From the NCBI RefSeq assembly GCF_013128195.2, contig NZ_CP053452.2:9362001-9426000 (forward strand): 64,000 nucleotides of DNA. Direction: 5' to 3'. This document shows positions 22,307 through 26,749 of this stretch, in pieces. Within the stretch, counting starts at the first letter, position 1. Every line of letters starts with the position of its first letter. The position numbers and the translations under genes are program-made. The notes under the pieces are model-generated. The model did no database searches and had not been told where the DNA came from. It saw nothing but the letters and a program-made list of their open reading frames with translations. Origin of the DNA: Frigoriglobus tundricola (lineage in GTDB: Bacteria; Planctomycetota; Planctomycetia; Gemmatales; Gemmataceae).

Positions 22307-22498
22307 ATGACTGACCCAAGCAAGCGAAACCTACTCAAATACCTATTACAGCAAGAGTCTGGAAACGGAGCCGCGGCGGCGCGCGGGAGCGTGCCAGGCG
22401 TCGCGCGACCCGGCGATAGACAAACGATTATCGGGCCGCAGAAAACACTCGGTCGATTCGCGTCGTGTTGCCCTGCCTGTCCTTCACGCTCACTGTGA
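22307..22498 (+). CDS. Possible small ORF or gene remnant
   Basis: A 63-codon frame with a well-placed ribosome site (CGGAGGCA directly before the ATG). The first 16 residues, MTDPSKRNLLKYLLQQ, look like a genuine helical start; after about residue 20 the composition becomes Gly/Ala/Arg-rich, and the frame runs 71 bp into the end of the opposite gene. It may be a short peptide gene or the 5' end of a gene broken by rearrangement. No homologue is recognised. Confidence 0.25.
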   Translation: MTDPSKRNLLKYLLQQESGNGAAAARGSVPGVARPGDRQTIIGPQKTLGRFASCCPACPSRSL

Positions 22499-25400
22499 GT
22501 TTGCCGCGTGGCGTGGTCACCGCTGCGTGTAACTTCAACTCGAACACGCCGCCCCCGCGTGCCACGAACCTCGGCGCCAGATTCTCACCGGCCGCCACAC
22601 CGTTCACGGCAAAGTCCGCGAGGACCGTGAAACTGGACGCATCGAGTCCGGTGCCGTAATCGTGCATCCCGATCAGGACGCGTTCCAGCGGGGGATTGGC
22701 ACCCGCGACCGGGGACGCCAGCGCCAGGGTGGGGCGCTGGTCGTCGAGCGACCACCCGAAACCCGGCTTCGCCGGGTTCTGCGGATCAAACGTCATATCA
22801 ATCGGGCAGCCCAGGTCGATCCACCGCACCAGCGTCAAACGGTCTTCATCGCTGAGCGGTGCGACCTTTCCGCTTTTCACTGAGTCCGGCGGCGGCATCA
22901 CGTTCCCGGTGTAGTCGAGGTCGGCACGGTTGCGGTTCGCGGGCGTGTTCGCGACCGGTTCGCCCTTGAGTTGTAGCGTCTTTGGGTCGCCCGGAGCCGT
23001 TTCCGTGGGGAAGTCGTCGTTCGACCACCCGTCGAGTCGCTCGCCGTAAATCTTCCACACGAGCAGGCTCCGGCGCGACTGAAACATGCGTACGTACCGC
23101 GACGCGTTGGCCCCGCGCCACGAGCCGATGATCGGCTTGTCTCCGAAGCGGCCGGCCGAGTCCATCGCGAGCCGGTAGTAGGTGCCCGGCACGTCGTCGC
23201 AGTCGGGCAGGTTCACCGTCTGGTCGTCGTCCAGCACGAGTTTCGCGGCCGGTGCGGCACCGTTTTTCGTGGTGTGGCAGGCGACGCAGCTCCGGTCGAG
23301 GATCGGCTTCACGTCGCGGAAGTATTCGACGTTCTTCACACCCGGATCGTAGCGCACACCGGTTTCAGCCTTCGCGTCCCATTTCTTCTTCGATTCGTCC
23401 CGTGCTTGTGTCGTGAGGAGCGGCGTCTTTGTCGTGAGATCGAACACATCGTAGTCCGGCTTCGCGGCGGCGGTGAGTCGGAAGTCGGTCGGCTTCTGGC
23501 TGTGCGCGTGGCAACCGCCGCAGTCGGTGCGGACCTCGCCCGGCCGGACCTGGTGCCACGTCTGCGCCATGTTCAGCACCATGCCCCGCTTGTCGAGCGT
23601 TTGGAACGTGAACCCGACGTCGGCGGGCACCTTCGCGAGGAAGCTGGTGTCCGGGTTCCCGTCCGGGTCGGCCGGCTCCTGAGCGGACGAGCCGAACTTG
23701 CGGAGCGGAAGCTCACCGAGGATGCGGAGCCGCTCGTTCGCGTGGCTGCGGAACGTGCGACCCGAGTTCGGCCCCTTGTTGCGGTCGGTGGTCGGCTCCA
23801 TCGCCAGAATGCGGACCGCGTGGATGTCGGCGTTCGAGTAGCGCCCCGTGTCCGCGCCCTGGTTGAACCAGTTGAGGGAGGCCCCGTCCAGCGCGCTATT
23901 GAACGGGTCGAGGTCCTGATACCCGGTCGCGTCGGTGCCGGCGAACGCCGCGGTCACGGTCCCGGGCTTAACGACACCATTCGGATAGCTCTCACGCTTG
24001 TAGAAGCTGGACGTGCCGACGAGGCCGAACGGGGTGCCCGCGGGCAGGTGTTTCGAGAGCGAGCCGTCGTTGGCGCGGGCGGGGAGCGCCTTCGGTTCAC
24101 GGACGCCGTGAACACGCTTGTACGGAACCAGTGCACGCGGCCACGACTCGTTGAACTTCGGGTCGTTCTTGATGAGCAACAGCTCACCCGGCTCGTTGAC
24201 TATCTTCCCCTCTCTAAGCAGGTACAGTCCGCCATCAACGGCCGGTTTGTGAACCGTGTACCCGCCGTTCACCGGTCCGGGCGACCAGACGACCAACAGG
24301 TGGTTGTCCGGCGCCGCGGAGGGGTGTGTCACCTTCCCGACGCGCGGGCCGGAACGCGATCCGCGAACGGCGAAATCCGCCGGACCTTCGTCGGCGCGAG
24401 CGAACGGGGTGATCGATTCGACTCCAAAGGGACTGAACGGCATCCGTCGCACACGGGGTTGTCCGGCGTCGGTGCGCCCGTGTTGCAGGGGCGGGTTCCG
24501 CGGATCGAGCGTGTAACCGGGGCCGAACGTCTGGCCCTCGGGCGCGCTGAGCGGGAACCTCACGAGGCTGCCGAACCCGCTGCTGGTCTGGCTGTAATAC
24601 TCTTCCGCGACAATCGACCCGTCGCTCAGTTGCGTCTGGAAGTGCCACGCGCTCGGGCTGGCGCCGGGCATGAAGGCGCTGGCCATCGGCCCCCAACCGG
24701 TGCCGTCCGGATGAATGGTCCACAGGCCCCACAGCGTCGAGGAGCGCAAGCCCTGCGATTCGAGGGAACTGAACATCACGCGGCCGTCCTTCAAAACGGT
24801 CGGGTGCAGGGCCATTCCGAGATTGAGGTGCCCGATACACTCGACGTTGCTGCCGTCGTCGTCCATCAGAAACAACTGAAGGATGTGCGGCAAACGCTTC
24901 GGCGGCTTGAACCCGTTGCGGTTACTCGTGAACATCACCTTCCCGCCCGGCAGCGGGCACGGCCCGGTGTTGAACACGCCGTACTCGAAAGAATTCTTGC
25001 CGGGCTCCGGCGTCCGGAAGTCTTTCGACCAGTCCCCCGCGCCGGTGTTCGGCGTGAACTGCTGGTGCGTGAGCCGCACGACCCTCTTCGACTTCACGTG
25101 GATCTTGTAAATGTCCGCCCCGGCCGGCGGCCCCTGCGAAATGCTTGCGCCCTTCAGATCGTGGAACAGCGAGTAGTAGACCCATTCACCGTCGAAGGAC
25201 ACCATCGGATCGGTCACACAGCCCGCGCCCCCCTTCACCAACACCTCTTCCCCACCGTCCGGTCGGAGTCGCATCAGATCCCCTCCGGCGTCCATGAAGA
25301 CCGGGTTGGAGATTTCCGGCCAGTTGGTCCCGACCGCGTCGCCCTTGCGGGGCGTGCGGACGTACACGATGTCGTAATCCCATTTCACCGATGGGTCACT

Positions 25401-25517
25401 TGCGATCGGCTTGGGGGTGACGTTGATCGGACCGTTGGCGTCCGGGGTCTGCGGCTGACCCAGAGCGAGGGAAGCGAGGAGAACCGGGAGACAAGCGCGG
25501 AGCACACGACGCGACAT
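22428..25517 (-). CDS. HzsA-related secreted protein with two haem c sites
   Basis: A 1029-residue exported protein. The ATG 25517 starts the signal MSRRVLRACLPVLLASLALG; upstream in-frame codons overlap a repeat and are not used. Residues about 40-480 resemble a TolB/WD-like propeller, with DPMVSFDGEWVYYS, KVMFTSNRNGFKPP, LFLMDDDGSNVECIGHLNLG and DGRVMFSSLESQG. CGGCH (Cys666) and CVACH (Cys744) are c-type haem sites, and the C-terminus has LVRWIDLGCPIDM and a beta-rich end domain. This matches proteins labelled HzsA-related, after the hydrazine synthase alpha subunit of anammox planctomycetes, but this organism shows no other anammox gene and the substrate is unknown. Likely periplasmic. Confidence 0.82.
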   Translation of the reverse strand: MSRRVLRACLPVLLASLALGQPQTPDANGPINVTPKPIASDPSVKWDYDIVYVRTPRKGDAVGTNWPEISNPVFMDAGGDLMRLRPDGGEEVLVKGGAGCVTDPMVSFDGEWVYYSLFHDLKGASISQGPPAGADIYKIHVKSKRVVRLTHQQFTPNTGAGDWSKDFRTPEPGKNSFEYGVFNTGPCPLPGGKVMFTSNRNGFKPPKRLPHILQLFLMDDDGSNVECIGHLNLGMALHPTVLKDGRVMFSSLESQGLRSSTLWGLWTIHPDGTGWGPMASAFMPGASPSAWHFQTQLSDGSIVAEEYYSQTSSGFGSLVRFPLSAPEGQTFGPGYTLDPRNPPLQHGRTDAGQPRVRRMPFSPFGVESITPFARADEGPADFAVRGSRSGPRVGKVTHPSAAPDNHLLVVWSPGPVNGGYTVHKPAVDGGLYLLREGKIVNEPGELLLIKNDPKFNESWPRALVPYKRVHGVREPKALPARANDGSLSKHLPAGTPFGLVGTSSFYKRESYPNGVVKPGTVTAAFAGTDATGYQDLDPFNSALDGASLNWFNQGADTGRYSNADIHAVRILAMEPTTDRNKGPNSGRTFRSHANERLRILGELPLRKFGSSAQEPADPDGNPDTSFLAKVPADVGFTFQTLDKRGMVLNMAQTWHQVRPGEVRTDCGGCHAHSQKPTDFRLTAAAKPDYDVFDLTTKTPLLTTQARDESKKKWDAKAETGVRYDPGVKNVEYFRDVKPILDRSCVACHTTKNGAAPAAKLVLDDDQTVNLPDCDDVPGTYYRLAMDSAGRFGDKPIIGSWRGANASRYVRMFQSRRSLLVWKIYGERLDGWSNDDFPTETAPGDPKTLQLKGEPVANTPANRNRADLDYTGNVMPPPDSVKSGKVAPLSDEDRLTLVRWIDLGCPIDMTFDPQNPAKPGFGWSLDDQRPTLALASPVAGANPPLERVLIGMHDYGTGLDASSFTVLADFAVNGVAAGENLAPRFVARGGGVFELKLHAAVTTPRGKLTVSVKDRQGNTTRIDRVFSAAR

Positions 25518-25576
25518 TGACGAACTCCAGAATCGTCTCGACCGGTCCAGAAACCGCGGTGACCAGGGGTTTGTTT

Positions 25577-25604
25577 GGAGCCAGGGGTTTGCACCCCTGG
25601 CTCC
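25577..25604. repeat. REP-like palindrome, left copy, next to the RAYT gene
   Basis: GGAGCCAGGGGT, loop TTGC, then ACCCCTGGCTCC: a perfect 12-bp stem. A partial extra copy (ACCAGGGGT at 25562-25570) lies just before it. The same palindrome occurs on the other side of the transposase gene. Confidence 0.85.
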
Positions 25605-25642
25605 GGACGGTCGCCCTTCCAGGGCTCCAAGCCCAATCATTC

Positions 25643-26089
25643 TCACAAATACTTCTCGTTGAACTCGATCCCATCCTCGACCAGCAACGAACGAAACTCG
25701 TCCTGAAACGTTTGCGAACGGTGATGGTCTTCCTGCTTGGCAAAGTACGCGGTCACCTTTTCGATGCGGCAACGGCTGACACTGAACCTCCCGGAACCGG
25801 CCTGCCACCACACCGGCCGAACATCAGGAAACGTCTCGTGCATCCACTTGGATGAGTTCGCTTTCACGACGCGCAACACGTCCGAGAGTGATCTGTCCTG
25901 ACGCAGACGGACCAAGAGGTGGACGTGATCAGCGATACCGCCCACCGCCAACACCATTCCACCCTCGCTGCGTACCAGAGCGCCTATGTAATCGTACAAG
26001 CGCGGCGCGATCTCTGGCGAGATCGTCGGTTCGCGATTTTTCGTGCTGAACACGAGGTGGTAATACAGACTCGCGAACGATTGCGGCAT
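25643..26089 (-). CDS. REP-associated tyrosine transposase (Y1/IS200-like, RAYT)
   Basis: A 148-residue single-strand DNA transposase. The HUH metal motif is HVH (55-57) in GGIADHVHLLVRL, and the likely catalytic tyrosine is Y115 in KVTAYFAKQEDHH. The family start MPQSFASLYYHLVFSTKNRE supports the ATG at 26089 over a GTG six bases earlier. RAYT proteins bind and mobilise palindromic REP sequences; matching palindromes flank the gene at 25577 and 26122. It ends 126 bp before the HzsA-related gene start, so the element sits in that gene's 5' region. All motifs look intact. Confidence 0.88.
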   Translation of the reverse strand: MPQSFASLYYHLVFSTKNREPTISPEIAPRLYDYIGALVRSEGGMVLAVGGIADHVHLLVRLRQDRSLSDVLRVVKANSSKWMHETFPDVRPVWWQAGSGRFSVSRCRIEKVTAYFAKQEDHHRSQTFQDEFRSLLVEDGIEFNEKYL

Positions 26090-26121
26090 GATCACTTCGC
26101 GTAATTAGGCCGGAGCAAAGA

Positions 26122-26170
26122 AGCCAGGGGTTTGCACCCCTGGCTCAAATACTCAAATACCTGGCTCAAA
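26122..26170. repeat. REP-like palindrome, right copy, with a short direct repeat
   Basis: AGCCAGGGGT, loop TTGC, ACCCCTGGCT (26122-26145), the same core as the copy at 25577. The end CCTGGCTCAAA (26139-26149) is repeated at 26160-26170, and ACTCAAATACC lies between, so the element edge carries a small direct duplication. Confidence 0.8.
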
Positions 26171-26212: not shown

Positions 26213-26749
26213 TTACTTCACAGCGTCTTCGGCGGCGTGAGCGATTTCCTTGGCCTTCTCGGCGGCTTCCTTCGTCGTCTTGAACGCGAAGTTCTTGCTC
26301 ACCACGCCGCCCTTCTTGTACACCACCACGGTCACGGCCGCGTCCTTGTTCAGGCTGTACTTGGACGGGCCGTCCTTGTCTTCGGCGATGGTCAGCGGGG
26401 TGGTCAGCTTGTGGGTGGTCTGGATCTTCTCGAAGTCGGCCGCCTCGACGCCGCCGACGCCGACCACCACGGTGCCCAGCTTCTCGTTGGTCTTCTGGAC
26501 CGCGTCCACCGCCTTGACGACGGAGACGAGGTTGTCGTCGGCCTTCTGGGTGAAGATGAGGACGACGGCCGGGCGCTCCTCGCCACCGAACTTGCAGACG
26601 TAGCAGAGGGTCTTGCCGGCCTTCTCACCGGTGATCGCCTTCACGTCGAACGCGCCGCCGATCTTCTTGTCCGGGCCGGACTTGAGGTCCGCGCCGAGGG
26701 CGGAGACGGACAGGGCCAGAGCCAGACCGAGGGTGAACAGAACGCGCAT
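26213..26749 (-). CDS. Exported thioredoxin-like protein
   Basis: A 178-residue protein. The ATG 26749 has AAGGAG 8 bases upstream and opens a signal peptide (MRVLFTLGLALALSVSALGA). The mature part has a CYVC motif at residues 49-52 after a beta strand, then RPAVVLIFTQKADDNLVSVVKAVDAV and TVVVGVGGVEAADFEKI, a thioredoxin-type alternation of strands and helices, followed by an Ala/Lys/Glu-rich helical tail. CYVC replaces CGPC, so redox activity is possible but not proven. It stands alone, about 215 bp downstream of the sigma-54 activator gene on the same strand. Confidence 0.7.
   Translation of the reverse strand: MRVLFTLGLALALSVSALGADLKSGPDKKIGGAFDVKAITGEKAGKTLCYVCKFGGEERPAVVLIFTQKADDNLVSVVKAVDAVQKTNEKLGTVVVGVGGVEAADFEKIQTTHKLTTPLTIAEDKDGPSKYSLNKDAAVTVVVYKKGGVVSKNFAFKTTKEAAEKAKEIAHAAEDAVK

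Follow-up and report, generated by a model that had tools for sequence, protein, structure and literature searches.

The locus described here raises the question of what kind of mobile system a short transposase gene enclosed by two identical palindromes belongs to, and which element that system uses. It lies in the window, a stretch of 64,000 nucleotides from the genome of Frigoriglobus tundricola (contig NZ_CP053452.2, positions 9,362,001 to 9,426,000; coordinates without a prefix are those of the window), for which an earlier note had proposed a live REP/RAYT module. Our reading, to which we give a probability of roughly three in four, is that the locus is a worn representative of a REP/REPIN-like system of TnpAY1 subclass 1.2, the element of which is the composite hairpin unit catalogued as Acido-Lenti-1 (RF01687).

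The palindrome, AGCCAGGGGTTTGCACCCCTGGCTC, occurs as an exact 25-mer at 25579-25603 and 26122-26146, and both copies fold strongly as single-stranded DNA (z -4.6 to -5.9; 0 of 200 shuffles folded equally well). Between them, on the minus strand, an open reading frame (25643-26095, start ATG at 26089) encodes a Y1 (HUH/Tyr) transposase of 148 aa (gene 25643-26089) with DHVH and Tyr115 and a PF01797 match of 74.2 bits, confirming the matching palindromes and the intact frame with HVH and Tyr115 that the note had described. By folding, the left palindrome (H2, 25577-25604) forms a 12-bp stem with a 4-nt loop and a GGAG foot on the minus strand, and it is one half of a larger unit, in which a linker of about 12 nt leads to a small hairpin, H1 (25613-25625; 5 bp, GGA loop on the minus strand). 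This whole unit, H2-linker-H1, matches RF01687 on the plus strand at 25581-25626 over the full length of the model (1-46 of 46; 35.4 bits, E 4.3e-6), a score below the gathering score of 37. The right palindrome (H2, 26122-26146) stands without a whole unit: the Rfam scan of the window gave no RF01687 match on that side, and our own covariance model, the training of which includes the left unit, gave a partial match at 26124-26153 (+, 23.5 bits). The partial palindrome copy and the right-edge direct repeat reported previously are also present, the former as CCAGGGGTTTG at 25563-25573 (left arm and part of the loop of H2), the latter as the 11-bp CCTGGCTCAAA at 26139-26149 and 26160-26170, with a tandem CTCAAATAC (26144-26152 and 26152-26160) inside the same region. 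We infer that the repeats of 26139-26170 are H2 debris. Since IS200-type enzymes are not known to make a target-site duplication, and CCTGGCTCAAA sits within this debris, its reading as such a duplication was ruled out.

The module is placed between two genes that share its strand, an upstream gene of 178 aa (26213-26749, minus), which gave no Pfam or NCBIfam match and adjoins the HzsA-like gene in 11 relatives, and the HzsA-like gene downstream (22428-25517, minus; PF18582, 47.6 bits). The 1127-aa open reading frame overstates the latter; its likely start is the ATG at 25517, from which a signal-peptide-like MSRRVLRACL... can be read, and the module is therefore intergenic, upstream of the gene, and not in its 5' region as had been suggested. 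This neighbor reaches 54.7 of 800 bits with the hydrazine synthase model and its PF18582 match is weak, so that it is probably not a hydrazine synthase; up to six matches to it were found per genome within the genus. A sub-threshold group II intron match (RF01999, 25515-25616, minus; 25.2 of 36 bits, E 0.0085) covers the left hairpin and was taken, together with microRNA matches at hairpin arrays, as probably due to chance in GC-rich hairpins.

The protein passes the NCBIfam IS200 model (58.9 bits, cut-off 55) and fails the RAYT model REP_Tyr_transpos (23.7 bits, cut-off 80), and it carries YFAKQEDHH, which fits Y---Q--HH, together with DHVH, WWQ and Tyr115 in 148 aa, while the Y---NP motif of class-2 RAYTs is not found (YFAKQ instead). 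Y---Q--HH is given as the signature of TnpAY1 subclass 1.2, a subclass listed without REPs and mostly from Cyanobacteria and Bacteroidetes (Quentin et al., 2018; PMC6006769); about 148 aa, DH[IV]H, WQ, low copy number and diverged paralogues are further traits described there that recur here. Among related proteins, 103 of 107 bear the signature (two of 109 loci gave no usable segment). In a quick tree of 69 rows, which includes 27 of the 80 named loci introduced below and in which the RAYT branches are long, the 56 subclass-1.2 rows, the window protein among them, group in a single clade (SH-aLRT 100); the IS200 proteins are its neighbors, without forming a clade of their own, and the class-2 RAYTs fall outside. 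An AlphaFold model (mean pLDDT 87) is closest to the TnpA structures of ISDra2 (E 6e-10) and IS608 (E 8e-9), ahead of the Escherichia coli REP transposase 4er8 (E 1e-5). From these sequence features, TnpAY1 subclass 1.2, on the IS200 branch, is a better statement of identity than strict RAYT.

In this context, a canonical class-2 RAYT/REP module, as the note had it, becomes highly improbable. What speaks for it is that the Y1 gene lies between palindromes and lacks close copies, that the foot resembles GGAG/GTAG and that copies are dispersed; against it are the failed RAYT model, Y---Q--HH in place of Y---NP, the separate position of the window protein in the tree, and the true class-2 RAYTs of the same genome, the flanking repeats of which are different. 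Two such genes exceed the model cut-off, at C1:7508857-7509306 (179 bits) and 5804076-5804498 (89 bits), the first flanked by long inverted repeats of its own. The partnership of palindromic repeats and transposase in the earlier proposal is upheld by the flanking palindromes, dispersed copies, inverted doublets and the absence of a transposase at this site in relatives, while the strict RAYT identity is contradicted by the model score, the motif and the tree.

The same protein evidence could suggest an ordinary IS200 insertion sequence with subterminal hairpins, given that the IS200 model is passed and the fold lies closest to ISDra2 and IS608 TnpA. Near-identical multiple copies, as expected of IS200 class 1.1, are nonetheless absent from the genome: the three paralogues share 57, 45 and 38% identity with the window protein, and no second copy exceeds 57%, against a mean within-genome identity of 99.4% given for subclass 1.1 in Table 1 of PMC6006769. 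Together with the placement and dispersal of the units, discussed below, this makes the alternative improbable.

Counting the palindrome across the 9.86-Mb genome, as the note had proposed, showed that it is not confined to the window, so that the condition by which the note would have been refuted, a lack of other copies, does not apply. Its 20-mer core occurs exactly at three places and with at most three mismatches at 18 distinct places, with none for the reversed-pattern control. Six of the 18, among them the sole other exact place, are part of another repeat of about 80 nt, and since the core thus mixes at least two repeat families, the whole two-hairpin unit was used as the measure. The repeat of about 80 nt, with core AGCGGCTCCCCGCCTCCTC, occurs at nine places with at most two mismatches (reversed control 0) and carries a palindrome of the window's CCAGGGGT..ACCCCTGG type at six of them (C1 990756, 1870359, 2268620, 3812511, 6899274 and 9258198). 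A degenerate two-hairpin pattern was also tried for counting and set aside as too noisy (27 matches, 20 in the reversed control). With RF01687, the genome holds at least 37 matches at E<=0.05, in a search that scored 150 of 2251 first candidates, and at least four others above the gathering score; of the other units among the matches listed, C1:3274302-3274347 comes closest, with 2 mismatches over 46 positions. About 23 nt inward of H2, 88 of 178 units have a further hairpin; the opposite side has one in 46 of 178. The proposed recognition unit consists of H1, about 8-9 nt, an nTAG or GGAG foot and H2, with a third hairpin in about half.

To place these units relative to transposase genes, two sets of loci were compared: 33 planctomycete loci, made up of the window locus with its three paralogues and the top match from each of 29 relatives (a few of the weakest may be other Y1 proteins), and 80 named loci, all those returned by one genome scan (WQxGY motif, Bacteroidota first query). 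At E<=0.1, RF01687 matched the flanks of 19 of the 33 planctomycete loci and of 40 of the 80 named loci; 18 and 38 loci, respectively, have a match within 250 nt of the gene, and 9 and 17 have one that reaches the gathering score. The published 'no REP' trait of subclass 1.2 does not hold for these loci. Matches crowd against the gene: in the named set, density per 10 kb of flank falls from 19.3 (0-150 nt) to 8.5 (150-300 nt) and 3.0 (300-450 nt), and to 0-1.4 beyond. Moreover, the nearest matches at up to 250 nt in both sets are mostly inverted, with H2 facing the gene (left '-' in 31/40, right '+' in 33/38), an arrangement that recurs in several phyla. As RF01687 itself misses half of the named loci, our own covariance model, built from 28 units, none of them from the 40 named loci without an RF01687 match, was applied to those 40, and by hand count it found units of at least 20 bits within 250 nt in 31 (23/30 plus 8/10), a few of these matches being shorter than a whole unit. 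The Bacteroidota plasmid locus L054 also has a unit, and at L055 none was found.

Under the same limits (20 bits, 250 nt), our model found no unit at eight IS200-type loci, where the best score anywhere was 12.6 bits, nor at six class-2 RAYT loci of related genomes, and RF01687 gave no match in the latter. No RF01687 match was found in eight whole IS200 plasmid records under stricter filters; this control is weak, because the same filters lost the flank unit of L054, and is replaced by the filters-off control with our own model. Near one class-2 RAYT, at a distance of about 820 nt, an inverted pair of Acido-Lenti-1 units (L051, 2745-2859; 39.9 and 32.2 bits) was missed by RF01687 and found by our model. 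Among 19 HzsA-like loci of relatives, four (L167, L170, L173 and L178) have a unit of at least 20 bits, all near the site orthologous to that of the window. Units away from subclass-1.2 genes are thus not rare. Complementarity between flanks, assessed without any model, exceeded the null maximum in 18 of 32 planctomycete and 13 of 77 named loci; class-2 RAYTs also pass this inverted-repeat test (4/6), with other repeats. The HzsA-like loci were uninformative as a control for the test, as their flanks are homologous to each other.

The window copy departs from this common layout. The left unit has the opposite orientation to that at most loci, H1 is missing on the right, and in the inverted-repeat test the flanks score 15.5, below the 99% null value of 24.4. 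Of the 'live' module proposed earlier, the intact reading frame stands, and the single whole unit, its less usual orientation and the failed test tell against the rest; the copy looks like a worn or eroded REP/REPIN-like element.

Beyond the transposase loci, the units are dispersed in many copies. Of 59 relatives, 31 gave a transposase match, and RF01687 occurs in 29 of these, compared with 7 of the other 28 (Fisher p 3.9e-8, phylogeny uncontrolled); within the genus, it occurs in 15 of 15 with the transposase and 2 of 4 without (p 0.035, phylogeny likewise uncontrolled). By comparison, 1-2 of 14 control genomes gave a match, never above the cut-off, and among the genomes of named loci (30 of 80 included) 27 of 30 carry the family, with up to 75 copies. 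In the own genome of the window, at least nine close pairs of units occur, all of them inverted among the matches listed; one flanks the paralogue L003 and at least eight others, 66-193 nt apart, hold no transposase gene. In 20 stretches from the top of the list of relatives, inspected by eye, the pairs likewise have a mostly inverted layout, and many show a third hairpin (H1b) adjoining a central inverted repeat at the position that the gene occupies in autonomous loci. Multi-copy dispersed palindromes, inverted doublets and an intact transposase flanked by palindromes, the features that define REP/REPIN systems, were all found. Furthermore, individual variants of the unit in this genome tend to be most similar to those beside a given paralogue, L003 in particular. 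A variant family of about five units (C1 244848, 244974, 5978092, 7496359 and 7496495) has no close subclass-1.2 transposase among the four in the genome and is possibly an orphaned family.

These observations also bear on the IS200 alternative. The ends of IS608 are not known to stand in inverted orientation, unlike most unit pairs here, and dispersed units without a gene, common in these genomes, are a second point against an ordinary insertion sequence.

Comparison of the window site between species, covering 12 of the 18 other genomes of the genus, indicated that the gene is a lineage-specific presence there. In all 11 syntenic relatives that hold both neighbor genes, the gap is devoid of a transposase and measures 147-400 nt, compared with 770 nt in the window by the same measure; the twelfth locus (L167, genome G004) is interrupted by a contig end, and our model finds a unit in its gap (36.3 bits). 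By eye, H2-type palindromes are visible in 5 of the 11 gaps (G002, G003, G007, G008 and G010). With our model, G003 and G008 showed whole inverted pairs of units and G010 an H2 remnant (18.1 bits), and the G002 and G007 gaps gave nothing. Genomes G008 and G010, the flanks of which are closely similar, differ by a stretch bounded by H2 copies, with three H2 in one of them and a single H2 in the other; the gap DNA of the relatives is otherwise too diverged for exact element ends to be mapped. The inverted pairs of G003 and G008 and the difference between G008 and G010 therefore mark the gap as a place where units are gained and lost, with the window transposase as a lineage-specific occupant.

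Whether the unit acts as DNA or as RNA was approached through its base pairing. Across 28 units, found by a structure model that favors pairing, 96.7% of cells are paired and 12 of 13 pairs show two-sided changes, a level of covariation reached in 0 of 500 shuffles, denoting compensatory pairing. Wobble cells carry information on the strand: on the strand annotated by Rfam, 118 units gave A.C 40 against G.T 16 (binomial p 0.002, the cells not being independent), and 29 further units gave A.C 7 against G.T 1. Most of this bias is contributed by the named loci (19 loci against 1); in the own genome it is weak (G.T 7, A.C 9), and in the planctomycete Y1 flanks alone, a small set, it is absent (G.T 2, A.C 1). 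Because an A.C cell reads as G.T on the complementary strand, the wobbles point to the strand that reads H1-foot-H2, and they favor this strand, opposite that of Rfam, which would have the same geometry as a REP with a 5' foot. Among 118 units, the foot reads nTAG in 73, GTAG in 16 and GTGG in none; the left foot of the window, GGAG, does not conform to the GT[AG]G of class-2 RAYTs. With nTAG so prevalent, such units may have escaped a search restricted to GT[AG]G.

The alternative that Acido-Lenti-1 is a genuine structured RNA, or a 3'-end or terminator element, beside which the transposase merely tends to insert, is unlikely in our view. It draws on the rating of the family as a probable RNA in Table 1 of Weinberg et al. 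(2010; PMC2864571), and the presence of RF01687 in 7 of the 28 relatives without a transposase match agrees with it. Placement and dispersal weigh against it, since a preference for one-sided targets would not give units that are mostly inverted on both sides at short distance, nor do gene-free inverted doublets and paralogue-linked variants fit it well. A preference for hairpins is also a property of group II introns, with which Acido-Lenti-1 has been associated, and of some insertion sequences, and the H1 loops, read as RNA on Rfam's strand, could presumably be UNCG tetraloops. The wobble pairs, however, favor the strand opposite that of Rfam, and within 250 nt of the class-2 RAYT genes in related genomes no unit was found. 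The 'RNA' family is thus probably the footprint of a mobile repeat system.

How such a REP/REPIN-like system could work is suggested by analogy with TnpA-REP and IS608, from which binding, cleavage, the role of the foot as guide and any present activity are extrapolated. The strand with the foot 5' of H2 would become single-stranded, as on the lagging-strand template, and H2 would fold; the transposase would bind the H2 hairpin and read the foot as a guide, and Tyr115 would cut and rejoin near the units. Inverted pairs of units could then move, or be lost, as non-autonomous doublets, and units with the gene in between would represent the autonomous form.

A broader statement, which we favor with more reserve, is that Acido-Lenti-1 as a whole would be a single-stranded-DNA recognition element and not an RNA gene family, annotated in Rfam on the wrong strand, and that it would belong to a REP/REPIN-like system driven by IS200-branch transposases of subclass 1.2 and spread through at least Planctomycetota, Bacteroidota, Verrucomicrobiota, Acidobacteriota, Calditrichota and some Proteobacteria. 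Such a system would stand apart from the class-2 RAYTs, either as an independent invention of REP parasitism or as its ancestral form.

Compared with published systems, the resemblance is partial in each case. Subclass 1.2 was described with REP 'no' and as mostly cyanobacterial and from Bacteroidetes, whereas here it was also met in planctomycetes and further phyla, frequently with hairpin units on its flanks (Quentin et al., 2018; PMC6006769). The published Acido-Lenti-1 shares the two hairpins, equal stem lengths, 12-nt linker and full-length model match, but was presented as a probable RNA of Acidobacteria and Lentisphaerae, while here it is a repeat that flanks transposases in more phyla, with wobbles that point to the opposite strand (Weinberg et al., 2010; PMC2864571). 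REP/RAYT systems and REPINs, as described in PMC2817692 and PMC8266576, likewise have palindromes with a foot flanking a Y1 gene, inverted doublets, dispersed copies and paralogue-linked variants; they differ in their class 2 transposase and fixed GT[AG]G foot, against class 1, nTAG and a composite of two or three hairpins here, and REPs usually exceed 100 copies, while tens of units were found in our case. TIRtrons and TIRYTs are the nearest prior description found: GTAG repeats in the PVC group, with Y1 genes flanked by inverted, partly self-complementary repeats (TIRs), related repeats being dispersed as dimers; TIRYTs are however reported to share RAYT motifs, and no link to RF01687 or subclass 1.2 was found in the passages covered here (Di Nocera et al., 2013; PMC3733652). 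Atypical hairpins also flank the Y1 genes of TnpAY1 class 3, found in planctomycetes and acidobacteria, but this class has a Y----Q motif, from which that of the window differs, and a CnGA foot (PMC6006769). In the article passages covered by our literature search, no statement tying Acido-Lenti-1 or RF01687 to a transposase was found.

If the proposed origin is true, an orphan Rfam family would gain a concrete origin and a partner protein, and the partnership of REPs and transposases would extend to the IS200 side of the Y1 family, making the relation of domesticated transposases to their repeats directly testable. Caution would also be advisable when RF01687 matches are annotated as regulatory ncRNAs, as in a recent article (PMC13298647, 2026) proposing that Acido-Lenti-1 matches downstream of Tannerella KLIKK proteases may regulate expression. 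Finally, on one planctomycete contig (L135, 645-952), four Acido-Lenti-1 units stand in direct tandem beside a transposase, which we read as tandem growth besides the inverted doublets.
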